Assembly: GCA_021325255.1 (NCBI GenBank)
Contig: JAJPHP010000080.1
Location: forward strand, 88,727-152,726
Direction of reading: 5' to 3'
From: Nitrososphaerota archaeon
Lineage (GTDB): Archaea > Thermoproteota > Nitrososphaeria > Nitrososphaerales > CADDZS01
Length of the DNA stretch: 64,000 bases
Shown: in pieces, positions 23,435 to 35,368 of the stretch
How the letters are laid out: every line of letters starts with the position of its first letter
How positions within the stretch are numbered: position 1 is the stretch's first letter
Notes under the pieces: model-generated
Seen by the model: the letters and a program-made list of their open reading frames with translations, nothing else
Told to the model about the DNA's origin: nothing
Database searches by the model: none
Position numbers and translations under genes: made by a program

Positions 23435-23443
23435 CTTAAATAA
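23435..23443 (+). promoter_or_regulatory. TATA box of the ilv leader/operon
   Basis: CTTAAATAA centred near 23439. The usual archaeal spacing of about 26 nt puts the transcription start near 23465, only about 10 nt before the ATG of the 35-codon leader ORF. The transcript would therefore begin almost at the leader start codon, and that codon is not preceded by a Shine-Dalgarno sequence. Confidence 0.5.
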
Positions 23444-23474
23444 TTACAAGTCGGCAGGTTAGTTTCACCAAGAA

Positions 23475-23582
23475 ATGCCCGGCAAGCAATCTGGAGTCGT
23501 TTCACTGGCAACCTCTGGACTCGTCACCTACGTTGACGTGTCTTTGAGCTTCTTGTTCAGCTTGCCGCTTACTGTGGCATAG
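23475..23582 (+). CDS. Candidate Leu/Val-rich leader peptide upstream of ilvB
   Basis: A 35-codon ORF, MPGKQSGVVSLATSGLVTYV then DVSLSFLFSLPLTVA, ending TAG at 23580-23582. Leu (6) and Val (6) make up 12 of 35 residues, concentrated in VVSLATSGLV and SLSFLFSLPL, and there is no Ile. It starts near the predicted transcript 5' end and stops 1 nt before a strong hairpin, 70 nt ahead of ilvB, the gene for the first common step of valine and leucine synthesis. This matches the layout of amino-acid attenuators in bacteria. Translation is not proven, and an ORF this short can occur by chance. Confidence 0.45.
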   Translation: MPGKQSGVVSLATSGLVTYVDVSLSFLFSLPLTVA

Positions 23583-23583
23583 G

Positions 23584-23626
23584 CCCCAGCTTTTTTCCAT
23601 ACAAACACGGAAAAAACAGGCTGGGG
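23584..23626 (+). promoter_or_regulatory. Hairpin between the leader ORF and ilvB
   Basis: CCCCAGC (23584-23590) pairs with GCTGGGG (23620-23626), and TTTTTTCC (23591-23598) pairs with GGAAAAAA (23609-23616), leaving a cag bulge and a 10-nt loop. That gives 15 base pairs. The T6 run in the left arm is itself a possible archaeal termination tract. It starts 1 nt after the leader stop codon, so a terminating ribosome would cover its base. Ribosome position could therefore decide whether it forms. Confidence 0.6.
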
Positions 23627-23651
23627 GAAGGGAAATTTGTAGTGTGGGGTA

Positions 23652-25346
23652 ATGAAAATACAAGTGGTAAAACTATCTGGATCGCAGTCGCTAATCAAGG
23701 CACTCCAAAATGAAGGGGCGAACGTACTTTTTGGAATGCCAGGGGGAGCAAATCTTCCTATCTACGATGAGCTGTCAAAGTCGGAGATAAGGCATATACT
23801 TGTCAGGCATGAGCAGCTCGCAGCGCACATGGCCGACGGTTTTGCACGCGTGTCCAGGAGGCCGGGCGTCTGCCTTGCGACTTCGGGTCCAGGTGCTACA
23901 AATCTTGTTACTGGGATTGCCACCGCCTACATGGACTCGATCCCCATGGTTGCGATCACCGGACAAGTAGCCACAACAAGCATAGGAAAGGACGCCTTCC
24001 AAGAGTGCGATATTGTCGGCGTCGCAAGTCCAGTCACAAAGTATGCGTTCCAGCCAACCGACCCAGCGACGATTCCCAGTACGGTAAAGAAGGCATTTTA
24101 CATTGCAGCATCAGGTCGCCCCGGCCCCGTACTGATTGACATTCCAAAGGACACGCAGACCGCAGAGGCGGAAACCCAGTTTCCCGACACCGTGAGAATC
24201 AGAGGATACAATCCCGTGGTCGTGCCAGATACCCTGCAGATTGAGAAAGCGCTTGACATTATCCTGAAAGCCGAACGGCCCATGATTCTGGCAGGTGGAG
24301 GTGTTGCGATTTCAGGAGCCTACGCTGAACTTCAGGCTCTGGCTGAGGCGCTGATGTGCCCGGTCGCCACTACGTTCAAGGGGAAGGGGGTTTTCAACGA
24401 AACCCACCCGCTCGCTCTCGGCCCCATCGGGATGCATGGTCACATAGAGGCAAACCGCCTAATTCTTGAAGCCGATGTTTTGCTCGCCGTCGGAACGCGC
24501 TTCTCCGACCGCTCCACGGGTAAGGTGAGCGATTTTGTTCCCAAAACAACCGTAATACACATTGACATTGATCCTTCTGAAATTAACAAGAACAAGGCTG
24601 TTGACCTGGGGATCGTGGGAGACGTCAAGGCCTCGCTCAGGGCGCTGCTCGAAGCCTTCATGAGGCGAGCAAGGCGCAACGAAATCAAAAAGTGGTCTGA
24701 AAGATTTCAGGAAGTAAAGGAGAGCTGCAGGAACGAGTGGCACGTCGACATGTCAAAGATATCCGCGATAAGCGTACTGAAAAAACTTAGAGAAGTCCTT
24801 CCTCCCGACGCGCTCGTCACCACAGAAGTAGGCCAATGCCAGATGTGGGCTTCGCTCCACTTCGACGTAATCGAGCCCGGTACCTTCTACAGCTCCACGG
24901 GTCTCGGCACGATGGGCTTTGGGTTTCCTGCCGCCATTGGCGCAAAGGTCGCCGCGCCGAACAGGCCAGTCCTAGACATTGCAGGTGACGGGAGTTTCAA
25001 CATGACCGAGGCCGCACTCGCGACCTCGGTTCTCGACAACATCCCGGTAATCGTCGTAATAATGAACAATACGATGCTCGGGATGGTTGCGCAGTGGCAG
25101 AGGCTGTTCTACGAACGAAGGTATCATGGAGTAAAGCTCTACGGCGTGCCGGATTTTGTCAAATTAGCGGAAGCTTACAGAGCCCAGGGACTACGGGTCC
25201 AATCAATCGACGAGTTTGCAAAGGCGATAAAACTCGGGCTCAGGAGCGACATCGCGACGATAATCGATATCCCGATATCTCCAGAGGAGGACGTCTTCCC
25301 GTTTGTCGTTCCCGGCACAGCACTGAAGGATATGATCGTAGCATGA
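23652..25346 (+). CDS. ilvB: Acetolactate synthase, large (catalytic) subunit
   Basis: 564 residues, the normal length. It condenses two pyruvates to acetolactate (valine, leucine) or pyruvate with 2-oxobutyrate (isoleucine), using thiamine diphosphate. The catalytic Glu54 lies in LVRHEQLAAHMADGFAR. The ThDP-Mg motif is GDGSFNMTEAALATSVLDN followed by NNTMLGMVAQWQ. FAD/ThDP domains are in the usual order. It opens an eleven-gene plus-strand run and overlaps ilvN by 4 nt (ATGA). A leader ORF and hairpin lie upstream. A G-rich sequence (gtgtggggta) before ATG may serve as ribosome binding site. Confidence 0.97.
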   Translation: MKIQVVKLSGSQSLIKALQNEGANVLFGMPGGANLPIYDELSKSEIRHILVRHEQLAAHMADGFARVSRRPGVCLATSGPGATNLVTGIATAYMDSIPMVAITGQVATTSIGKDAFQECDIVGVASPVTKYAFQPTDPATIPSTVKKAFYIAASGRPGPVLIDIPKDTQTAEAETQFPDTVRIRGYNPVVVPDTLQIEKALDIILKAERPMILAGGGVAISGAYAELQALAEALMCPVATTFKGKGVFNETHPLALGPIGMHGHIEANRLILEADVLLAVGTRFSDRSTGKVSDFVPKTTVIHIDIDPSEINKNKAVDLGIVGDVKASLRALLEAFMRRARRNEIKKWSERFQEVKESCRNEWHVDMSKISAISVLKKLREVLPPDALVTTEVGQCQMWASLHFDVIEPGTFYSSTGLGTMGFGFPAAIGAKVAAPNRPVLDIAGDGSFNMTEAALATSVLDNIPVIVVIMNNTMLGMVAQWQRLFYERRYHGVKLYGVPDFVKLAEAYRAQGLRVQSIDEFAKAIKLGLRSDIATIIDIPISPEEDVFPFVVPGTALKDMIVA

Positions 25347-25963
25347 GCAGCGTAGCAACAAAGCCCGTCCCGGCCGCCGAAGCGTCAGATGGATCTAAGA
25401 GTAGCGAAGAGGAAGAAACTTCAATCGGCAGGCAGGCCGGAAGAAGCGCTCTTGAGACTGGCGCAAACGAAAAGAAACAGGCAAGAGACCTAGTCTACGC
25501 GATAGTCGAAAACCAACGCGGTGTCCTGCATAGAATTTCGGGTATGTTCCGCGCTAAGGGCTTTAACATCACGAGCATCTCAATCGGCGAGTCCTCGTCC
25601 CCTGACCTCGCGAGAATGACGATCGTGCCAAAGGGAGACGAGGCCGCTCTGCAGCTTCTGGTAAAGCAACTCCAGAAGATGATTGACGTCATCGAGGTGG
25701 GGACAATCAGGCCTGCGGACGCGATAGAAAGAGAACTTGCACTCGTAAAGTTTGAGACACGCGACATGAAGAGCAAGAACGAGATACTCGAGCTTTCAAA
25801 CAATCTCGGTGCGCGGGCCGTGGACGTGTCTAGGGATTCGCTGGTCGTGGAGTTTACCGCCACCCCAGAGCGAATCGACTACTTCATCAACGAGGCGTCC
25901 AAGTCCGGCGCGATCAAGGAGATTGTGAGAACCGGGCTCACTGCCTTAAGAAAAGGACTGTAG
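25343..25963 (+). CDS. ilvN: Acetolactate synthase, small regulatory subunit
   Basis: 206 residues from ATG 25343, which overlaps the ilvB stop. An N-terminal extension of about 47 residues, low-complexity and Ser/Glu/Ala-rich, precedes the ACT domain (about 49-125: LVYAIVENQRGVLHRISGMF, then GFNITSISIGES) and the C-terminal domain (about 130-206). The ACT domain binds valine to inhibit the holoenzyme. The extension is not in typical IlvN (about 160 residues). A longer start would intrude into ilvB, so the ATGA overlap start is preferred. Confidence 0.95.
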   Translation: MSSVATKPVPAAEASDGSKSSEEEETSIGRQAGRSALETGANEKKQARDLVYAIVENQRGVLHRISGMFRAKGFNITSISIGESSSPDLARMTIVPKGDEAALQLLVKQLQKMIDVIEVGTIRPADAIERELALVKFETRDMKSKNEILELSNNLGARAVDVSRDSLVVEFTATPERIDYFINEASKSGAIKEIVRTGLTALRKGL

Positions 25964-26040: not shown

Positions 26041-27636
26041 ATGGAAGAGCAAGGCAAAACTATGAAATCGGCGACAGCAGCCGCCCAGGACGTGGTAAAG
26101 GTCCCAAAGAGAAGGGTGAGGATCTTCGACACGACGCTGCGCGACGGAGAGCAGACGCCGGGCGTGTCGCTGACTACCGAGGAAAAGATCGAGATCGCTG
26201 AGGCGCTTGACCAGCTCGGCGTCGACGTGATCGAGGCCGGCTTCCCGATAGTTTCGGAAGGAGAGTTCGCTGCAGTCAAGGCAATCAACAAACTGGGGCT
26301 GCGCTCACAGGTCGCCGCGCTTTCAAGGGTGGATAAGAAGGATATCGATGCCCTAATTTCCTGCGACATTTCATACGGTCACCTCTTCATCGCAACCTCT
26401 GACATTCACCTCCAGTACAAGCTGAAGATGACCCGAGAGCAAGCGCTCCGTGCGGCCATCGAGGGCATAGAGTACGCGCGTGCACACGGGATGAGGGTAG
26501 AGTTCTCGGCCGAGGACGCCACGAGGTCAGACAGAGAATACCTGGCACACGTGCTGGCTGAGGTCTCAAAGCTCGGAGTAGAAAGAATCGACGTGCCCGA
26601 TACCGTGGGCACGATGACGCCGGAGGGCTTTGCGGAGATAATCCAGTTCCTCCGGAGCAGGGTGAATATTCCACTAAGCACCCACTGCCACGATGATTAC
26701 GGGCTAGCGGTTGCAAACAGCTTAGCAGGCGTGATCGCGGGCGCAGACCAATCTCACGTGACGATAAATGGACTAGGGGAGCGCGCCGGAAACGCGTCGT
26801 TAGAGGAGTTCGTAATGGCAATCACGCGGCTCTACAACTACGAGACAAACATCAACACGAAGATGCTCTACTCTACATCTAGACTGGTAGCAAGAGCAAG
26901 CCGGGTACTGGTCCAGCCAAACAAGGCTATAGTCGGGGACAACGCGTTCGGACACGAGTCCGGGATTCACACGCACGGTGTCCTTGTTCTCCCTGCAACC
27001 TACGAGCCAATGGAACCGGAGCTCGTGGGGGCTAAGAGGAGGATCCAGGCTGGAAAGCACGCTGGCTCTCACGGAATTGCAGCTCAGCTGAAATCGCTCG
27101 GAATCGAGGCGACAAACGAGGAAATCAAAAGAGTAGTTCAAAAGGTCAAGATACTGGGCGATATGGGCAAGACTGTAACGGATGTGGACCTGGACAGGAT
27201 CGCACGCGACGTAATCGGCATAGAGCGCAGCATACCCTTCCTCAAGATCACAGACCTCGCCGTGGTAACAGGAATAAACACTGTCCCGACAGCTTCTGTG
27301 AGACTCACGGTCGGAGGAAACCAGATTATCACGGTCGCGGAGACTGGAAACGGGCCGGTGGATGCGGTCGCAAGGGCAATACAGAAGGTCACCGACAGGT
27401 TCACTAAAGTGAAGCTGAAGGAATACCGGCTGGAAGCGATCACGGGCGGAACAAACGCCGACGCCGAAGTGGTGATCAAGGTGGAGGACGAAAATGGGCA
27501 GGTGTCGACGGCCTCCTCTACTGGACCTGACATCATCATGGCGAGCGTCGACGCGATGATAAGTGGGATAAACGAGATTACTCTCAGAAAGTCCCGAAGC
27601 TCACAGCAGAGTGCGAAAATGATTCCTACGCCCTAA
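26041..27636 (+). CDS. leuA: 2-Isopropylmalate synthase
   Basis: 531 residues. It condenses acetyl-CoA with 2-oxoisovalerate, the first step specific to leucine. The N-terminal TIM barrel opens RIFDTTLRDGEQTPGVSLT, with the Arg-Asp pair and metal-binding Asp, and carries STHCHDDYGLAVANSL, the HxH metal site. NGLGERAGNA is the other signature. The C-terminal LeuA dimer domain (about 400-520) provides leucine feedback. A citramalate synthase cannot be excluded from motif alone, but the paralogue encoded at 31434-33350 looks more like CimA. It follows ilvN by 77 nt. Confidence 0.92.
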   Translation: MEEQGKTMKSATAAAQDVVKVPKRRVRIFDTTLRDGEQTPGVSLTTEEKIEIAEALDQLGVDVIEAGFPIVSEGEFAAVKAINKLGLRSQVAALSRVDKKDIDALISCDISYGHLFIATSDIHLQYKLKMTREQALRAAIEGIEYARAHGMRVEFSAEDATRSDREYLAHVLAEVSKLGVERIDVPDTVGTMTPEGFAEIIQFLRSRVNIPLSTHCHDDYGLAVANSLAGVIAGADQSHVTINGLGERAGNASLEEFVMAITRLYNYETNINTKMLYSTSRLVARASRVLVQPNKAIVGDNAFGHESGIHTHGVLVLPATYEPMEPELVGAKRRIQAGKHAGSHGIAAQLKSLGIEATNEEIKRVVQKVKILGDMGKTVTDVDLDRIARDVIGIERSIPFLKITDLAVVTGINTVPTASVRLTVGGNQIITVAETGNGPVDAVARAIQKVTDRFTKVKLKEYRLEAITGGTNADAEVVIKVEDENGQVSTASSTGPDIIMASVDAMISGINEITLRKSRSSQQSAKMIPTP

Positions 27637-27726: not shown

Positions 27727-29046
27727 TTGCCGCGCGCTTACAGAGTTTCATTCATCGAAGGAGACGGAATCGGCCCAGAGATACTTTCGGCGAGCAGATC
27801 TGTCCTCGAAACTCTCAGCGAATGCTTCAACCTGAACTTCGAGTTCATCGCGACGCCGGCCGGTGATCGAGCCCTGGCGAAGACAGGTGAGGCTCTCCCT
27901 AGGGAGAGCTTCATCGCGATAAAAGAGTCCGATGTCTGCCTCAAGGCTCCCGTCGGTGAAACCGCAAAGGAGACGATTCTCAAGATACGCCAAGACTTGG
28001 ACCTCTACGCAAACATCCGCCCCGCGCGGAATTACGTGTTTGTCGAGAGCAGGTTCAAGAACGTTGATCTCGTAATTGTGCGGGAGAACACCGAGGACAT
28101 CTACGTGGGAAGGGAGTTCGAAGAGCATGACGGAAAGAGGGCGACCGCACTCAAAGTCACGACTGAAAAAGCGAGTAAAAGAATCGCGAAGGTGGCTTTT
28201 GAAATGGCAGCCTCACGCCAAGTAAACAGAGAAAGGGAGGAGAAGCGAGACGACAGCGACTCGTATTACTCGCAATCCGCTCGCACTGATGCATACCTGA
28301 TATCGGATGAGAAAAGACAACAACCGGAAATTCCCGGTAGAGGCGTCGGCCGAAACTTCCCTAGCGTGACATGCGTGCACAAGTCCAACGTCTTGCCAAA
28401 GACAGACGGGCTCTTTGTAAAGAGCTGCACCGTCGTCGCTGAGGGGTATCCTTCGATAAAATTTTCCACAATGTATGTTGACACAGCGGCGATGTCGCTC
28501 GTCAGGAACCCAGAGTCCTTCGACGTGATAGTGACGTCAAATATGTACGGCGACATTCTGTCTGACGAGGCCTCTCAGGTCGTGGGTGGCCTTGGCATCG
28601 CGGCCTCGGCGAATCTGGGAGACGGATTTGCCCTCTTTGAGCCGGTTCACGGCTGTGCGCCAGACATTGCGGGAAAGGGGATCGCAAACCCCATTTCGAT
28701 GATATTCACTGCGAAGATGATGCTCGACTGGCTCGGAACTAAGAGATCCGATGAAAACTGCCTCGCAGCCTCGCTCGCAATAGATCGAGCAGTGTCCGCA
28801 GTTGGCGCAAGAGGAGTCCTCACTCCAGACATCGGCGGGGCATCGAGCACTGCGGAGGTAACCAGGGAAATTTGCAGCGAGATCCGAGAGATGTACGGCG
28901 AAGATGGGGAGCGAGTAAGAGGTATGACGAAAAAAGGTTCAGGCATGCGTGCGGGAAGACAAGGAGAAGAATCGCGCCCAATTGGTGAGGTTGTCGGTTT
29001 AGAAAACAGCAATCGAAAGGATGTGTTGTTGAAGAAAAAATGGTAG
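27727..29046 (+). CDS. leuB: 3-Isopropylmalate dehydrogenase with an unusual insertion
   Basis: 439 residues, against about 340-350 in typical LeuB. It oxidatively decarboxylates 3-isopropylmalate. Motifs: EGDGIGPEIL, LKAPVGET, LDLYANIRPARNY, RENTEDIYVGRE, SNMYGDILSDEASQVVGG and EPVHGCAPDIAGKGIANP. About 47 residues (166-212, rich in Arg, Glu, Asp, Ser) are inserted between the helix FEMAASRQ and the strand VTCVHKSNVLPKTDGLF, and the C-terminus is extended by about 40 residues. The active-site Lys (in VHKSNV) is kept. TTG 27727 starts it. It overlaps ilvE by 7 nt (ATGGTAG). Confidence 0.9.
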   Translation: MPRAYRVSFIEGDGIGPEILSASRSVLETLSECFNLNFEFIATPAGDRALAKTGEALPRESFIAIKESDVCLKAPVGETAKETILKIRQDLDLYANIRPARNYVFVESRFKNVDLVIVRENTEDIYVGREFEEHDGKRATALKVTTEKASKRIAKVAFEMAASRQVNREREEKRDDSDSYYSQSARTDAYLISDEKRQQPEIPGRGVGRNFPSVTCVHKSNVLPKTDGLFVKSCTVVAEGYPSIKFSTMYVDTAAMSLVRNPESFDVIVTSNMYGDILSDEASQVVGGLGIAASANLGDGFALFEPVHGCAPDIAGKGIANPISMIFTAKMMLDWLGTKRSDENCLAASLAIDRAVSAVGARGVLTPDIGGASSTAEVTREICSEIREMYGEDGERVRGMTKKGSGMRAGRQGEESRPIGEVVGLENSNRKDVLLKKKW

Positions 29047-30011
29047 TCGAGTTAGAGCAGGCTTCGATGGAACAATCCAACAAAGTAAAGCCGGAGATTC
29101 AGAAGACAAAGTACGTGTGGATGAACGGCAAGCTGGTCGGATGGGACGAGGCGACCGTCCCCGTCATGACCCACGCGCTTCACTACGGCACGGGTGTCTT
29201 CGAGGGAATAAGGGGATACGGGACCAACGGGAACCTCAACCTCTTCAGGTTGCGTGATCACTTTGAGAGGTTGATCAACTCCGCAAAGATATGCGACATT
29301 GAAACAAAGTACACAGCTGACGAGCTGAGCGAGGCATGCGTCATGCTGCTCAGGTCCATCGAGATGAAGGACGATTGCTACATCCGTCCGATTATCTTTG
29401 TAGGATTTTCTGGAATAAACCTGGGATTCATCAACTACCCTGTTGAGGCGGCCATCCTAGCTTTTCCATTCAAGCACTACTTTGGCAAGCCGGGCCTTGA
29501 TGTTTGCATCTCGACTTGGACGAGGCTCTACGATCCTGTGACCCCACCGATGGCAAAGATCTGCGGGAACTACGTGAACTCTGTGTTTGCAAAGAGGGAA
29601 GCGGCGAAGAACGGCTATGACGAAGCGATAATGCTCAATGTGGAGGGGAAGGTTTCGGAAGGGACTGGCGAGAACATATTCGTGGTAAAGAAAGGCAAGA
29701 TGTACACCCCGCCGATTGGTGCGTCAATCCTTGACGGTATCACCAGAAATACGGTGATGGAACTTGCGAAGGAGGTCGTTGGAATTGAAGTGGTCGAAAG
29801 AGACATTGCAAGGTCGGAGCTCTACACCGCTGATGAAGTCTTCCTGACCGGAACAGCGGCGGGCATCGCGCCGGTGTTGTCGATAGATCGACGCAAGGTG
29901 GCAAAGGGGACCGTGGGCCCGCTGACGAGAGATCTCGGAGAGGCCTACAATGCGCTAGTCATGGGAAGAATGAACTATGGTCACGACGACTGGGTGACCA
30001 AGGTATACTGA
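29040..30011 (+). CDS. ilvE: Branched-chain amino acid aminotransferase
   Basis: 323 residues, fold-type IV PLP enzyme. It transfers the amino group of glutamate to the keto acids of Val, Leu and Ile. It starts with a short extension, then YVWMNGKLVGWDEATVPVMTHALHYGTGVFEGIRGY. The catalytic Lys lies in MAKICGNYVNSVFAKREA, and EGTGENIFVV and TGTAAGIAPV are the cofactor phosphate and substrate loops. It overlaps leuB and precedes ilvC, so the final Val/Leu/Ile step is co-transcribed. The first ATG (29040) is used; an in-frame ATG at 29067 is an alternative. Confidence 0.96.
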   Translation: MVVELEQASMEQSNKVKPEIQKTKYVWMNGKLVGWDEATVPVMTHALHYGTGVFEGIRGYGTNGNLNLFRLRDHFERLINSAKICDIETKYTADELSEACVMLLRSIEMKDDCYIRPIIFVGFSGINLGFINYPVEAAILAFPFKHYFGKPGLDVCISTWTRLYDPVTPPMAKICGNYVNSVFAKREAAKNGYDEAIMLNVEGKVSEGTGENIFVVKKGKMYTPPIGASILDGITRNTVMELAKEVVGIEVVERDIARSELYTADEVFLTGTAAGIAPVLSIDRRKVAKGTVGPLTRDLGEAYNALVMGRMNYGHDDWVTKVY

Positions 30012-30049
30012 GAGAGCGAGAATTTGTTTTTGGAGTGATCGAGAAGAAA

Positions 30050-31282
30050 ATGATGATGAGTAACCAGGAAGAAGAGAGGAAGCAGCAAGTAGCAGCAACC
30101 GAAGGAGCCGCAAAAGCGATCTACGACGACGATGTCACCTCGACGCAGGTCAAAAAGAACGAAGTAATCGCGGTACTCGGTTACGGAATCCAGGGCAGGG
30201 CTCAGGCGAGCAACCTTAGCGATTCTGGGTTCAGAGTCGTGGTCGGCCTGCGCAAGGGGGGGAAATCATGGGACCTAGCAAAGAGCGACGGACACAAGGT
30301 GATGGACGTCGTGGAAGCCGCGAAGGCGGCGGACATTATCCACATGCTCGTCCCGGACATGGTTCAGGGTGATGTTTACAGGGAAATCGAACCGTACGTG
30401 ACGCCTGGAAAGGCGCTCAGCTTCTCGCACGGGGCAGCAATACACTGGGGTTGGATCAAATCACCTCCGGGTGTTGACGTATTCATGGTAGCTCCGAAGG
30501 CGCCGGGACAGAGGGTCAGGGAGGTCTACCTCCAAGGATTCGGCACACCATCGATCGTCGCAGTGCACCAGGATGCGACGGGCAGAGCTTGGGACAGGAC
30601 GCTGGAGCTTGCCAAGGGGATTGGAAGTACAAGAGCCGGAGTCATCAAGACCACGTTCAAGGAGGAGACCGAGAGCGATTGGTTCGGAGAGCAGGTCGAC
30701 CTCTGCGGAGGGGTTGATCGCCTAATTAGAAAGGCGTTCGAGGTTCTCGTCGAGAACGGCTACCAGCCGGAGATCGCGTACTTTGAGTGCCTGCACGAGC
30801 TCAAGCTCATAGTGGATCTTATCCAGAGGTACGGTATCTCTGGGATGTACAGGGGAGTCAGCGAGACTGCGAGGTTCGGAGGGCTCACGGTGGGAGGCAA
30901 TGTGATCAACGAGGAGACGAAAGAACGGATGCGCAGCGCTCTCAGGGATATCCAGTCCGGAGCTTTCGCTGACCGGTGGGTCAACGCCTACAAGAACGAA
31001 CAGGCTCGAGCCTTTGAGAAGTACATGGACGAACTGGATGCTCACCCGATAGAGCAGGTCGGAAGAAGACTAAGGCGCATGATGTGGCCGGAGGATGCCC
31101 TGCAATCGCAATCGTCGAAGGTAGCGAGCTGGTCAAAGCTTCAGCAGCAGCACGGTGAGAGGAAGGGTGGCGCAATAACAAGAAAGAGTGGCAAAGCTAC
31201 CTCTTCGTCGCGCGCTGTGGCGAGCAAGAAGACGCAGAGGAAGCAGCGAAGGAAAACTACTACGACGAGGGGCAGAAAGTAA
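30050..31282 (+). CDS. ilvC: Ketol-acid reductoisomerase with a basic C-terminal tail
   Basis: 410 residues from ATG 30050; family proteins are about 330. It converts acetolactate to dihydroxyisovalerate using NAD(P)H and Mg. The Rossmann motif is GYGIQGRAQASNL, and the loop LRKGGKSWDLAKSDG keeps Ser, suggesting NADPH preference. The metal/substrate site includes DLCGGVDRLI and FECLHELKLIVDLI. The last 58 residues (31106-31282) follow the catalytic domain MMWPEDAL. They contain 10 Lys, 8 Arg and one Glu (KKTQRKQRRKTTTTRGRK), unlike any standard KARI. This tail could bind nucleic acid or the membrane. Confidence 0.95.
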   Translation: MMMSNQEEERKQQVAATEGAAKAIYDDDVTSTQVKKNEVIAVLGYGIQGRAQASNLSDSGFRVVVGLRKGGKSWDLAKSDGHKVMDVVEAAKAADIIHMLVPDMVQGDVYREIEPYVTPGKALSFSHGAAIHWGWIKSPPGVDVFMVAPKAPGQRVREVYLQGFGTPSIVAVHQDATGRAWDRTLELAKGIGSTRAGVIKTTFKEETESDWFGEQVDLCGGVDRLIRKAFEVLVENGYQPEIAYFECLHELKLIVDLIQRYGISGMYRGVSETARFGGLTVGGNVINEETKERMRSALRDIQSGAFADRWVNAYKNEQARAFEKYMDELDAHPIEQVGRRLRRMMWPEDALQSQSSKVASWSKLQQQHGERKGGAITRKSGKATSSSRAVASKKTQRKQRRKTTTTRGRK

Positions 31283-31433: not shown

Positions 31434-33350
31434 ATGGTAAAAAACTCGAAGGAAGGCAACCGGGCAAAAGCCACTGGAGATCAAGAGGGTAACAGTGGCA
31501 CGAGCTCTCCGCGTCCTGCCTATTCCAAGATAGAGATACTTGATGCCACACTCAGGGAAAGAACCTTCGGCGTCTCGTTTGCGCTTGGAGAAAAGCTCTC
31601 GATTGCCAGCATGCTTGATTCGCTTGGCGTCGATTTCATCGAGTATGCCCTACCAAAGAATGCAAGCGGACGGGAAGGTGCGTCTTCTTCTGCTGCTACC
31701 AGTTTTTCAAATCAACTTTCATCGGTTTTAAGGCGGGGAACTCAGGCTATCCTGCAATACTCCGAGAATGCACCTTCTGCTCGAGATGATGCTAATGAAG
31801 GCAAGACGCAAGTTGGCGAAGAGAATGGCGACGAAAATCATGGATCGTCGATTCCCTCAAGTATAGTCAGCGTCAGGGCAGACTGCTGGAGGTCGCATCT
31901 GATAGAGCCGTTCTCGCATAGAAGAATCGATCCAGACGAAAATCTGAGGAAACTAAAATCCAGGATTTCGGCGCTTGGAGAAGCGCATGGAAAGGACGTC
32001 TTCTTCTCCGCGGATCACTTTTTTGACGGTTATTCTGAAGATTCTGTTTACGCCCTATCAATAATCAAGGCAGCCGCGGAGGCGGGTGCTTCCAGAGTCG
32101 TGCTTTGCGACTCGAGAGGCATCGCCACGCCAGATCAAGTGGCAAAAGCTGTGAAACTCGTCGTAAGTAATCTGTCGAATGAGCATGAAGAAATCCTGGT
32201 TGGGATATGCGCGCACAACGACTGCGGCCTGGCCGTTGCAAATACGCTTGCTGCTGTTAGCGCTGGTGCAAAGCATGTCCAGTGCACAATCAACGGGCTT
32301 GGCGAGCGCGCCGGATGCGCGGACCTTTGCCAAGTCCTCCCCCTGCTCAATTTGAGACTCGGATACACGACGCTCAACTCGCCTCTCCCAAAGGAACGGC
32401 AGCTCCTATCACTGAGGGCGCTTTCAAGGAAGGTCTCTGACGTTTCGGGCATCGTATCGTCGCAGAGACCATTTGTGGGAGAAAGAGCATTCGCACACAG
32501 CGACCCATCCCATGTCGCTTCTGTTTCCTACAGCCCCGACACTTACGAGACTATCAATCCTGCCTTCGTGGGCAACGCGAGGAAGATGGGAGTCGACGAC
32601 GCATCCCTAATCCTCGGCGAGATGTGGGAGCTAGGGCTTTACTCAAAGGAAAGGGAGGCGGTGGCGAGCAATGTGATCGCGAAGATGAACGATCTCGAAG
32701 CTCGTGGCTACAAATTCGATGACGCAAAAGCGAGCGTCCATCTGCTCATCCTTGACACCCTAGAAGTTGAGATTCAGCCTTTCCAAGTACTTCGATGGGA
32801 GACGAGCACGATAAGCAAGGTTGGCGCCCAGCCCGAGGTCAATGGTACAATCGAGGTTGCAATCGAAGAAGGTCATGGAGAGGACAAGAAGATGAAAAAC
32901 GTTATCGCCTCGGCAAAGGGAGTCGGCCCTATACACGCTATCGACCTCGCCCTAAGAAGGGCACTCGAGAGCGAATTTCCTGAACTCAAGGATCTCAAAC
33001 TCATCAGCTATTCGCTGAACATCGTAGACTCTCTTAACGGGACGGCCGCGGCGGCAAGGGCTAGAACAGAATTCGCAGATCGGGGGCCTTCACAGGTCGA
33101 CAACATGTCGATGAGCGGTTCTCTTTCACCCGCCGAGGCAAACGCATCTTCGTCGGAGTCTCCTGGTACACCGGCCGCCAGCTCTATGACTTGGGCGACC
33201 ACGGCCGTTTCGGATGACGTGCTAGATGCGAGCATACGAGCTTTGATTGACGGCTATAGATACAAGCTGATTTTCAAGAGCAGCAGCGCGAGGTTCGCGC
33301 TACCTGACTGGAAAGTTGCGCTGAGTTGGAGATACTCTGAGAGGTGCTAG
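31434..33350 (+). CDS. cimA: LeuA/CimA-family synthase, probably citramalate synthase, with an altered metal site
   Basis: 638 residues. Features of the long CimA type are DHFFDGYSEDSVYALSI, VLCDSRGIATPDQV, INGLGERAGCADL, RPFVGERAFAHSDPSHVASV and VGNARKMGV. CimA joins pyruvate and acetyl-CoA for isoleucine. The metal ligands differ from LeuA: the usual RD is Arg41-Glu42 (Glu also occurs in homocitrate synthases), and the first His of HxH is Cys259 (GICAHNDCG). Low-complexity inserts lie at about 112-142 and 575-605. The pairing with LeuA in one operon supports a citramalate role, but catalysis with Cys259 is uncertain. ATG 31434. Confidence 0.8.
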   Translation: MVKNSKEGNRAKATGDQEGNSGTSSPRPAYSKIEILDATLRERTFGVSFALGEKLSIASMLDSLGVDFIEYALPKNASGREGASSSAATSFSNQLSSVLRRGTQAILQYSENAPSARDDANEGKTQVGEENGDENHGSSIPSSIVSVRADCWRSHLIEPFSHRRIDPDENLRKLKSRISALGEAHGKDVFFSADHFFDGYSEDSVYALSIIKAAAEAGASRVVLCDSRGIATPDQVAKAVKLVVSNLSNEHEEILVGICAHNDCGLAVANTLAAVSAGAKHVQCTINGLGERAGCADLCQVLPLLNLRLGYTTLNSPLPKERQLLSLRALSRKVSDVSGIVSSQRPFVGERAFAHSDPSHVASVSYSPDTYETINPAFVGNARKMGVDDASLILGEMWELGLYSKEREAVASNVIAKMNDLEARGYKFDDAKASVHLLILDTLEVEIQPFQVLRWETSTISKVGAQPEVNGTIEVAIEEGHGEDKKMKNVIASAKGVGPIHAIDLALRRALESEFPELKDLKLISYSLNIVDSLNGTAAAARARTEFADRGPSQVDNMSMSGSLSPAEANASSSESPGTPAASSMTWATTAVSDDVLDASIRALIDGYRYKLIFKSSSARFALPDWKVALSWRYSERC

Positions 33351-33362
33351 GGGTTAGAAGAT

Positions 33363-34796
33363 ATGAAGACAGAATCATCTGCAGCAGCGTGCGGACAGAC
33401 CATCGTGGAAAAGATCGTTTCGAGAGCTGTTGGAAGAAAAGTCGGGCCGGGAGACCTGATCGAGGTGCTCCCGATTGACAAGCTCTACTTCAACGAGGTC
33501 ATCGCTCCGCCGGCGCTTGTAAATTTCAACGACGATTTCTCACCAATCTTCGAAGAAATCGAGGGCTCGGCGGCCCGCCGCAGTTCCACGACGCGAAGTG
33601 GGGAGATAGTGGTATTTGACGGCGAGAAGAAGCAGAAGGCAAAACTCAGGGTCTTTGACCCGAAGAGAGTTTGTTTCATACCCGATCACACGGTGCCGTC
33701 TTGCTCGGTCAAGGTGGCACAGGGCGTCAACCTGATGAAGAGTTTCGCCGCGGAACAGGGAATCAAAATGTACAAGGAAGGGGATGGAATCGAGCACACC
33801 GTCGTAACGGAGGAAGGATTCGTAAGGCCGGGAGAGGTCGTCGTAGCGACAGATAGCCACACAGACACCGTCGGCGCAATCGGTGCGCTCGGGTTCGGAA
33901 TCGGGACCACCGAGGCTGAGTACGCCCTCGCCCTGGGAGAGATTTACGACTTTTTTGTCCCCGAGACCTACAGGTTCGAGGTGAGCGGAGAATTCCCTTC
34001 AGGAGTCTTTGCGAAGGACCTCATCCTCCACATCCTCGGGACGCTGAAGGAGGGCGGGTGCTCTAAGCGCATTGCAGAGTACGGCGGGGAGACAATACGA
34101 AAAATGGGAATGGATGGCCGCTTCACCATATGCAACATGTCCGTCGAGATGAGCGCCAGATCTGCCATAGTGAACCCAGATCAGGTTACCATGGATTTCA
34201 TCGCTGACATCGTCAGCCGCCACCCAGAGCTATCGGTGGAACTGGCCGAGAGCATGAACTCTGTCAAGTTTACGGAGAGCGACGCAAACGCAGAGTACTC
34301 ATCCAGGATGGATGTCGACGCCTCAAAGCTTGTCCCACAGGTTGCGCTCCCTCACTCTCCCGCGAACTCCAAGCCAGCGAGCGAGGTAAACGACGAGGTG
34401 AACGTCGTCTTCATAGGTTCGTGCACTAACGCAAGGCACACCGACCTCGTTGAAGCGGCCAGGGTCCTCAAGGGGAGGAAGGTTCACAGAAACGTGAACC
34501 TCATAGTTATCCCTGCTTCGAGGCTCGTATACAACTGGGCAATGTCGGAGGGAGTCCTCGAAACCTTTGCAGATGCGGGTGCAAATATCGAGTCGTCAAA
34601 CTGCGGCCCGTGCTTCGGGAAGCACATGGGAGTACTTTCGCCTGGTGATCGCTGTGTGAGCACTTCCAACCGCAACTACAAAGGGCGCATGGGATCGCCT
34701 GAGGCCTCTATCTACTTGGCATCTCCAGCAACGGCCGCGGCGTGCGCTATAGAGGGCAAGATAGCAGATCCGAGGAGGTACTACAAAGGAAATTGA
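33363..34796 (+). CDS. leuC: 3-Isopropylmalate dehydratase, large subunit
   Basis: 477 residues. It isomerises 2- to 3-isopropylmalate (and probably citramalate to methylmalate) with a [4Fe-4S] cluster. Cluster ligands are in IGSCTNARHTD and SSNCGPCFGKHMG. Substrate-site motifs are IPDHTVPS and ATDSHTDTVGAIGALGFGIGTTE. A charged loop (about 75-98, SSTTRSGEIVVFDGEKKQKA) and a linker around 315-345 are longer than usual. The small subunit follows 14 nt downstream. Homoaconitase is possible by sequence, but the operon supports leucine synthesis. Confidence 0.93.
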   Translation: MKTESSAAACGQTIVEKIVSRAVGRKVGPGDLIEVLPIDKLYFNEVIAPPALVNFNDDFSPIFEEIEGSAARRSSTTRSGEIVVFDGEKKQKAKLRVFDPKRVCFIPDHTVPSCSVKVAQGVNLMKSFAAEQGIKMYKEGDGIEHTVVTEEGFVRPGEVVVATDSHTDTVGAIGALGFGIGTTEAEYALALGEIYDFFVPETYRFEVSGEFPSGVFAKDLILHILGTLKEGGCSKRIAEYGGETIRKMGMDGRFTICNMSVEMSARSAIVNPDQVTMDFIADIVSRHPELSVELAESMNSVKFTESDANAEYSSRMDVDASKLVPQVALPHSPANSKPASEVNDEVNVVFIGSCTNARHTDLVEAARVLKGRKVHRNVNLIVIPASRLVYNWAMSEGVLETFADAGANIESSNCGPCFGKHMGVLSPGDRCVSTSNRNYKGRMGSPEASIYLASPATAAACAIEGKIADPRRYYKGN

Positions 34797-34810
34797 GCGC
34801 TGCAAAGGAT

Positions 34811-35368
34811 ATGATCAAAAAATCAACCAATAATGTCAGAGGCACCGTGACAGTAAAGTTCGGCGACGACATCAACACAGATTACATCATACCTGCATAC
34901 TTGCTTCAGGAGGCTTGGGACAAGCGCTTCTTCGCCGATTATGCTTTCGAGAGATACAGCCCTGAGTTTGTGAAGGTCTGCAGGTCAAACCCGAACGCCG
35001 ACAATATAGTCGTGGCTGGAAAGAACTTTGGATGCGGCTCAAGCAGAGAACAGGCGGTATACGCAATCCAGTACAACAACGTGAACGCGGTCATCGCCGA
35101 GTCTTTTCCAGACATCTTCTTCCGCAACTCGATCAACAACACCTTTTGTGTGGTTCGTGTGGAGAGCACTTCCGATTTCGAAATCGGCGACAACGTCGAG
35201 ATCGACCTAAACAACCTCGCCGTTTTGAGAAAGGACAAAGCCGGCGTTCTCAGAGCAGAGAAGAAGATTCTGATGAACACTGAGGAGAGGAATCTCTTAG
35301 TTTCCGGCGGAAGGCTCGGGAAAGTGAAGGACAGGCTGAGGCAGAGGCTGCTCCTCGCCTCGTGCTGA
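34811..35368 (+). CDS. leuD: 3-Isopropylmalate dehydratase, small subunit
   Basis: 185 residues from ATG 34811 with AAAGGAT just upstream; an earlier start would overlap leuC. Family motifs are FGDDINTDYIIPAYL at the front and GKNFGCGSSREQAVYAI, which binds the substrate carboxylate. It forms the swivelling domain that completes the LeuC active site. The strand pattern SFPDIFFRNSINNTFCVV and EIDLNNLAVL is standard. A basic C-terminal stretch (KVKDRLRQRLLLASC) ends it. Next gene pheA follows after 42 nt. Confidence 0.95.
   Translation: MIKKSTNNVRGTVTVKFGDDINTDYIIPAYLLQEAWDKRFFADYAFERYSPEFVKVCRSNPNADNIVVAGKNFGCGSSREQAVYAIQYNNVNAVIAESFPDIFFRNSINNTFCVVRVESTSDFEIGDNVEIDLNNLAVLRKDKAGVLRAEKKILMNTEERNLLVSGGRLGKVKDRLRQRLLLASC

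Follow-up and report, generated by a model that had tools for sequence, protein, structure and literature searches.

A putative branched-chain amino-acid-sensing leader peptide ahead of ilvB in archaea of the class Nitrososphaeria

Attenuation of ilv and leu operons by leader peptides such as ivbL, ilvL and leuL is textbook knowledge in bacteria. Do archaea control branched-chain amino-acid synthesis in a similar way? The question was raised by a 64-kb stretch of DNA from a Nitrososphaerota archaeon (64,000 nucleotides, here called the window), in which a sequence-only reading saw the layout of bacterial leader-peptide attenuation ahead of ilvB and knew of no established archaeal example for ilv genes. 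The available text of a 2021 paper points the same way, stating that no example of attenuation or antitermination was known in archaea (PMC8448881). We also found no archaeal amino-acid leader peptide in searches of the open-licence literature.

Two archaeal studies come near to the subject. In Haloferax volcanii, uORFs of 15-31 aa were found in 16 of 97 long 5' UTRs; these are also short ORFs in the leaders of normal genes, but the available main text mentions no regulatory codons and uses the terms "attenuation" and "leader peptide" 0 times (PMC4983044). The promoter-proximal elongation control described in Saccharolobus is likewise post-initiation control in archaea, but its available text has 0 instances of either "leader peptide" or "uORF" (PMC8448881).

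The ilvB leader in the window and the genes behind it

The leader occupies positions 23435-23651 of the window on the plus strand, in the order TATA-like box, 35-codon ORF, one spacer nucleotide, hairpin and ilvB, which begins at 23652. The TATA-like box (CTTAAATA, 23435-23442), recognized by its sequence, is the putative leader promoter and predicts a transcript that would start about 10 nt upstream of the ORF. The leader peptide uORF (MPGKQSGVVSLATSGLVTYVDVSLSFLFSLPLTVA, 23475-23582, stop codon TAG) has counterparts in six close relatives and across the class. Its 35 codons include six Leu and six Val codons, which bears out the initial description of a TATA box followed by a 35-codon ORF with 12 Leu/Val codons and by ilvB.

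Two helices are predicted in this leader. In stem I, CGGCAAGC at 23480-23487, in uORF codons 2-5, pairs with GCTTGCCG at 23560-23567, near the uORF end. Stem II is the hairpin behind the stop codon, whose 5' arm (CCCCAGCTTTTTTCC, 23584-23598) and 3' arm (23609-23626) form 15 pairs in the predicted fold, with a 3-nt bulge on the 3' side (23616-23618). Its first base lies 1 nt past the TAG, so that the 15-bp hairpin claimed for this place was found there, with the bulge in addition. The T6 run, initially noted as a tract that goes with the hairpin, turned out to be at 23591-23596, within the 5' arm of stem II and paired to A's, and the window has no run of four or more T's between the hairpin and ilvB. 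The T6 therefore does not represent an intrinsic terminator's U tract. The entire leader folded modestly better than its shuffles (z -1.74, 12 of 200 shuffles as low), and the signal of the hairpin region alone was stronger (z -3.8). Rfam release 15, leader and riboswitch families included, gave 0 matches at the gathering score in the 64-kb window, and a tRNA search of positions 1-64000 found no tRNA gene.

The gene behind the leader, ilvB, encodes the large subunit of acetolactate synthase (23652-25346; TIGR00118 over the cut-off, E 1.8e-217). Its start is ambiguous, either ATG at 23652 or GTG at 23664, and by eye the latter aligns with the GTG/TTG starts of relatives. ilvB is the head of a co-oriented run of genes on the plus strand. 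It is followed by ilvN/ilvH, encoding the small subunit (25343-25963; PF10369 and PF22629 matched within a longer ORF, 25094-25963), for which we infer the start at 25343 from an ATGA overlap with ilvB. Then come leuA, of the 2-isopropylmalate synthase family (26041-27636; NF002085 over the cut-off), a leuB-like isopropylmalate/isohomocitrate dehydrogenase gene (27727-29046; TIGR02088, E 1.3e-110, below the cut-off), the branched-chain aminotransferase gene ilvE (29040-30011; TIGR01122 and NF005146 over the cut-off) and the ketol-acid reductoisomerase gene ilvC (30035-31282; TIGR00465 over the cut-off). A citramalate synthase-like gene (31434-33350; TIGR00977, E 1.8e-95, below the cut-off) precedes a leuC-like gene for the large subunit of an isopropylmalate dehydratase family enzyme (33363-34796; TIGR02086 over the cut-off) and a leuD-like gene for the small subunit (34742-35368; TIGR02087 over the cut-off), after which prephenate dehydratase and aspartate kinase genes are found. 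The ilvB-headed cluster is probably a single transcript.

The leader in close relatives

A scan with one genome per species gave 80 loci, six of which have an ilvB 78-84% identical to that of the window. A family search around one close relative covered nine genomes and returned the same six; a close ilvB was absent at that cut-off in the other three. The full layout of TATA box, uORF and hairpin is present in all seven members of what we call the window family, the six relatives and the window itself. A lack of ORF or hairpin conservation in relatives had been set beforehand as a possible refutation, and this result did not refute the reading. All seven members have TTAAATAA, with its first T 32-39 nt upstream of the uORF start. 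The family uORFs are 31-35 codons long, that of L005 probably starting from an internal TTG, and end in stretches rich in Leu/Val/Ile plus Ala (LPLTVA, LPLIVA, LPFSVA, LSLLVTIA, LSLLVILA and LSLLVIIIA). The gap from stop codon to hairpin is 0-1 nt.

Both helices are found throughout the family. Stem I, between the first codons of the uORF and a stretch some 12-15 nt short of the stop codon's end, is predicted in 7/7 members (p 0.000-0.057 each, from 300 shuffles per sequence), and its pairing is maintained by changes such as GACAAGC/GCTTGTC in L064 and AACAAGC/GCTTGTT in L005. An early helix within the leader ORF, of the 1:2 type of attenuators, is thus present as stem I. The lower part of stem II, CCCAGC/GCTGGG, is identical in all seven members except at the sixth pair of L002. 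Six positions of the upper part, counted up from the 3'-side bulge, each show two to three Watson-Crick pair types across the family, as read from the predicted fold of each sequence, in which unpaired cells cannot show up. Six of the seven hairpins have a 3-4 nt bulge on the 3' side. The hairpin z values range from -4.8 to -0.4 and reach -2 or lower in five members, the hairpins of L002 (-1.7) and L004 (-0.4) being weak.

The leader peptide as a whole is not conserved within the window family. Most codon differences are non-synonymous (390 of 465 differing codon pairs), and codon positions 1, 2 and 3 differ in 289, 239 and 335 of 659 cases, which is little coding signal.

How the hairpin might switch off ilvB is less apparent from these leaders. 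A U tract after the hairpin is absent in 7/7 family members, the sole run of four or more T's there being a T4 in L005, right next to the start of ilvB. With T6 in the stem and no T tract after the hairpin, an intrinsic terminator was rejected for the window family. We also looked for an antiterminator, in which the uORF would pair with the hairpin's 5' arm. The best helix was at chance in six of the seven members (p 0.04 in L003), and its positions were not shared. The ilvB ribosome site is not part of stem II, the uORF holds no conserved partner for it, and it is not covered by the hairpin, whose 3' end is 20-37 nt before the ilvB match. Antiterminator pairing and a sequestered ilvB ribosome site were therefore rejected, as neither has a conserved helix in the family. 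Because U tract, antiterminator and paired ribosome site are all lacking, the OFF step has no visible effector in the window family.

Leader ORFs across Nitrososphaeria

We collected 163 ilvB upstream regions (the window, 79 of the 80 one-per-species loci, 23 further loci and 60 stretches). After strand correction and removal of two short regions and 42 duplicates (60-mer de-duplication), 119 were left, including nine from a Bathyarchaeota-like outgroup. The search was blind to amino-acid content and required a TATA-like box 27-48 nt before an ATG, an ORF of 12-45 codons and a stop 8-120 nt before the ilvB match. A TATA-linked uORF candidate was found in 88 of the 119 distinct regions, which share ancestry, so that the counts are not independent events. 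Among the last ten codons of the 88 candidates, at least six code for Leu/Ile/Val in 54 and at least seven in 42 (mean 5.6), whereas the 541 candidates from 2380 dinucleotide shuffles include 10 with at least six and none with at least seven. The remaining 31 regions have no candidate, and 34 of the 88 candidates stay below six Leu/Ile/Val codons. In the outgroup, one of the nine regions has a candidate (MQGINMWNKISTSPKGGEK), and it is poor in Leu/Ile/Val.

The enrichment is of in-frame codons and not of base composition. In two uORF sets, both picked with composition in view, the share of Leu/Ile/Val at every codon from -1 to -10 lies in the range 46-82%, compared with 5-25% from -13 to -20 (79 uORFs), and the frequency of T at codon positions 1, 2 and 3 of the last ten codons is 0.17, 0.68 and 0.34 (61 uORFs). 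The uORF frame is the frame richest in Leu/Ile/Val in 55 of the 61. The leader thus contains a short ORF that is rich, in frame, in codons for the end product of its operon, a feature by which attenuators are recognized.

Regions ahead of other biosynthetic genes served as controls. At permissive distances, ilvD gave any candidate in 3 of 18 loci (best 2/10 Leu/Ile/Val) and hisG in 4 of 15 (best 4/10); neither gene shows a leader of this type. Some candidate was found in 21 of 41 trpE loci, the best having 6/10 Leu/Ile/Val (one locus, L141). A looser scan of ilvD returned an ORF at L114 with 13/26 Leu/Ile/Val, which we rejected as a leader; its TATA score is weaker, its stop is 130 nt from the match and its enrichment is N-terminal. 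An apparent Trp leader ahead of trpE (MGGHIW..., MGGHLW..., ...GGSFWP...) was likewise discarded, as in most of the 41 loci the same bases, read in the trpE frame, give a common TrpE start of the type V-A-T-F-G; this false positive was seen at L144, L145, L146, L147, L149, L312, L316, L321, L322, L326 and others. The uORF is also not an N-terminal extension of ilvB, since a stop in the ilvB frame lies after the uORF in 69 of 79 cases (inside it in eight, only upstream in two).

The same search was run ahead of the predicted genes of G017, a near-complete genome of Nitrosopumilales type (1.60 of 1.62 Mb scanned). It gave 124 candidates with 110 distinct uORFs, three with at least six Leu/Ile/Val, and the ilvB uORF, MTYILTQPFLVLVELVL, is the only one of the 110 with seven among the last ten codons. 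One of the two runners-up, MINHTQQTALLDSVALVGITDRLIL, is TATA-linked, has 6/10 Leu/Ile/Val and lies ahead of a gene for an M1-family aminopeptidase (L268:10163-12652).

Could an ORF and a hairpin simply stand by chance in a long 5' UTR? The modest folding of the window leader as a whole fits this, but the family layout, stem I, the pair changes of stem II, the in-frame codons, the blind search, the G017 scan and the controls all contradict this reading, and we give it next to no credence. It is the comparative part (7/7 family members and 88 of 119 regions) that is decisive for the reality of the leader.

The uORF sequences are unlike between lineages and have their codon content in common, as seen in MPRADSEHWHKVHVLVLLRLA of Nitrososphaera, MGSIKTINCDMANRKILFVKGFLLL of Nitrosocosmicus, MTKVDSTSISSILLLVELVL of the Nitrosopumilales type, MKRARDTILLSKDLQSLLVIVPLLVP of L006 and MRGGAETGRRLSVQVVLLVLNVLPLVVLL of L066. 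This variation bears on two other readings. Nascent-peptide arrest is exemplified by the fungal arginine attenuator peptide and TnaC. Here, the leader peptide would bind free Leu/Val/Ile in the ribosome tunnel, arrest at the stop codon and block ilvB. The stop codon does adjoin the hairpin, and C-termini are common within one lineage (for example HVLVLL-LA and LLVELVL), but between lineages they differ and only the Leu/Ile/Val content is common, which codon sensing fits better than one arrest motif. Moreover, a ribosome stuck at the stop would be expected to melt the hairpin. We consider arrest improbable. Alternatively, the uORF product might be a small hydrophobic protein with a function of its own, and the hairpin might act separately in mRNA protection or as a protein-binding site. 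The C-termini are indeed hydrophobic, and the lower stem CCCAGC/GCTGGG with its 3-4 nt bulge is nearly invariant in the family, as for a protein-binding site. Nevertheless, the peptides are unlike between lineages, with lengths from 17 to about 37, and helices tie the uORF start to the uORF end, which makes this reading more improbable still.

Stop-site hairpins, mostly of unlike sequence, are also predicted in Nitrososphaera, the Nitrosopumilales type, L006, L069, L092/L098, L173 and L180 (Nitrosopumilales type, NpumA, NpumB and NpumC are working labels coined in this analysis). In the Nitrosopumilales-type hairpin, GCTGTA/TACAGC, the 5' arm takes in the final Leu codon together with some of the stop codon. 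A GGAG/GGTGA site follows closely downstream of this hairpin, whose 3' end is roughly 20 nt before the ilvB start. The arms in L092 and L098 are CCTTGTAG/CTGCAGGG and CTTGTAG/CTACAAG, respectively. The hairpin has z of -2 or lower in 21 of the 58 leaders folded, which include 3/12 in Nitrososphaera, 1/8 in NpumA, 4/5 in NpumB, 3/5 in NpumC, 1/4 in Nitrosocaldus and 4/9 of others. It is lacking in Nitrosocosmicus (0/5) and in most Nitrosocaldus leaders, and a second Nitrososphaera-like set gave 0/3. Outside the window family, stem I exceeds chance in L006, L066 and L092 and, within NpumC, in three of the five members. A fourth NpumC member, L211, has a different helix, formed with the hairpin's own 5' arm. 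Stem I was not above chance in the leaders tested from Nitrososphaera, Nitrosocosmicus, Nitrosocaldus, NpumA and NpumB or in L067, L069, L098, L173, L209 and L180. Where the hairpin is present, its 5' arm begins at the stop or within about 6 nt of it, and the run of Leu/Ile/Val codons extends to the stop or close to it. A waiting ribosome and the hairpin would therefore be mutually exclusive.

Some Nitrosopumilales-type leaders may come closer to the bacterial pattern. In L178, L194, L220 and L222, a run of T4-T6 after the stop-site hairpin could be a true U-tract terminator. In L211, a helix is predicted between ACAGCACCA, within the uORF, and TGGTGCTGT, at the stop (p 0.003). It would rival the stop-site hairpin and is possibly an antiterminator in that sub-lineage.

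A quick tree of ilvB with 59 rows has the leader in 32 rows and in 0/7 outgroup rows. The 32 include the deepest Nitrososphaeria rows, L063, L066, L069 and L006, the first three having long end branches that make their placement unsure. With leader labels that come from composition-picked uORFs, the tree needs 6 changes, versus 19.9 in shuffles. One gain in the class ancestor, with later losses, would be the simplest reading. The losses are mostly in one part of Nitrososphaeraceae. One Nitrososphaeraceae subgroup (L024, L025, L032 and L036) is without the leader and has a common promoter-like GACAACGAGTATATAT near the ilvB start; this nearer promoter seems to have replaced the leader. L056 and L059, scored leaderless on the tree, have 29-codon uORFs of equal length at a similar place about 150 nt upstream of ilvB, the end of that in L059 having 8/12 Leu/Ile/Val. 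They are possibly divergent leaders.

Taken together, these data bear unequally on the bacterial-type layout that was seen initially. A branched-chain amino-acid-sensing leader peptide ahead of the archaeal ilvB is strongly supported, and this across the class. The bacterial-type terminator was not supported, as the T6 is in the stem, no T tract follows the hairpin in the window family (7/7) and no conserved antiterminator was found there.

How the leader may act

We put at roughly 80% the reading that this leader acts in cis, sensing the charging of Leu/Val/Ile tRNA by way of a translated short peptide and regulating the ilvB-headed cluster. The TATA box, the uORF, its in-frame codon content and the predicted helices with their conservation are the observed part of it; from these we infer uORF translation, stalling and the direction of control. 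A ribosome would load at once on a transcript begun about 10 nt before the uORF and would reach the Leu/Val/Ile run just before the stop. If Leu/Val/Ile were plentiful, the ribosome would finish and leave, stems I and II would close, and ilvB would be low. If they were scarce, the ribosome would wait on the last codons, covering the 3' strand of stem I together with the beginning of stem II, so that both stems would be open and ilvB would be on. The waiting ribosome would block the hairpin directly; a separate antiterminator is not seen, nor, in the window family, a U tract. The direction of control follows feedback logic, by which scarcity of its product should turn a biosynthetic operon on.

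The least certain part of the model is its output, on transcription or on translation. At about even odds, we favour early, factor-dependent termination of ribosome-free RNA over a translational block of ilvB or a change in mRNA stability. Transcriptional attenuation by a route other than a bacterial-type terminator is possible. The leader layout, which mirrors attenuators, is in line with a transcriptional output. According to the available text of two papers, FttA probably accounts for polarity in archaea (PMC12548453), and in Saccharolobus early elongation complexes recruit aCPSF1 (PMC8448881). With the same sensor, however, closed hairpins could instead impede the access of ribosomes to ilvB, or change the decay of the mRNA, and leave transcription unaffected. 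The lack of a U tract after the family hairpin, the GGAG/GGTGA site that adjoins the Nitrosopumilales-type hairpin and the GTG/TTG starts that ilvB, by eye, often appears to have in the window family are consistent with such an output, but the family hairpin leaves the ribosome site uncovered and pairing between the uORF and that site is not conserved. We regard this translational variant as possible though not probable. Re-initiation from the uORF to ilvB is unlikely, because gene spacings above 30 nt show little coupling in the available text of PMC12548453 and the spacings of about 20-76 nt seen here are mostly too long; the sign of control would also be wrong.

Among known systems, bacterial translation attenuators such as the erm/cat leaders are similar in that a ribosome stalled in a uORF opens RNA structure for the next gene, but the archaeal signal would be amino-acid supply, and the ilvB ribosome site lies outside the hairpin in the window family. 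With the bacterial ilv/leu attenuators, among them the Corynebacterium ilvBNC leader (PMC11857589), the archaeal leader shares a short leader peptide with clustered Leu/Val/Ile codons, here right behind a putative promoter, an early helix followed by a later hairpin, and the same target gene. Unlike these attenuators, it has a TATA promoter and, in the window family, no U tract and no antiterminator that we could find, and its codons abut the stop, where a ribosome would block the hairpin directly. The archaeal ilvB leader thus resembles a bacterial attenuator in sensor and layout. We do not file it as one, because two defining features, the U-tract terminator and the antiterminator, fail. It is rather likely that amino-acid leader-peptide attenuation exists in archaea and was already in the Nitrososphaeria ancestor, in a form in which a ribosome at the terminal codons blocks the hairpin directly, without U tract or antiterminator in the window family, and which is presumably coupled to factor-dependent termination or to translation.

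Nitrososphaeria include ammonia oxidisers. If the reading is correct, archaea would couple translation to gene control by leader peptides, and ammonia-oxidising archaea would gain a concrete regulation of branched-chain amino-acid synthesis. The leader would also provide an archaeal test system in which a waiting ribosome, an RNA hairpin and termination are linked, with a eukaryote-like polymerase and aCPSF1/FttA.
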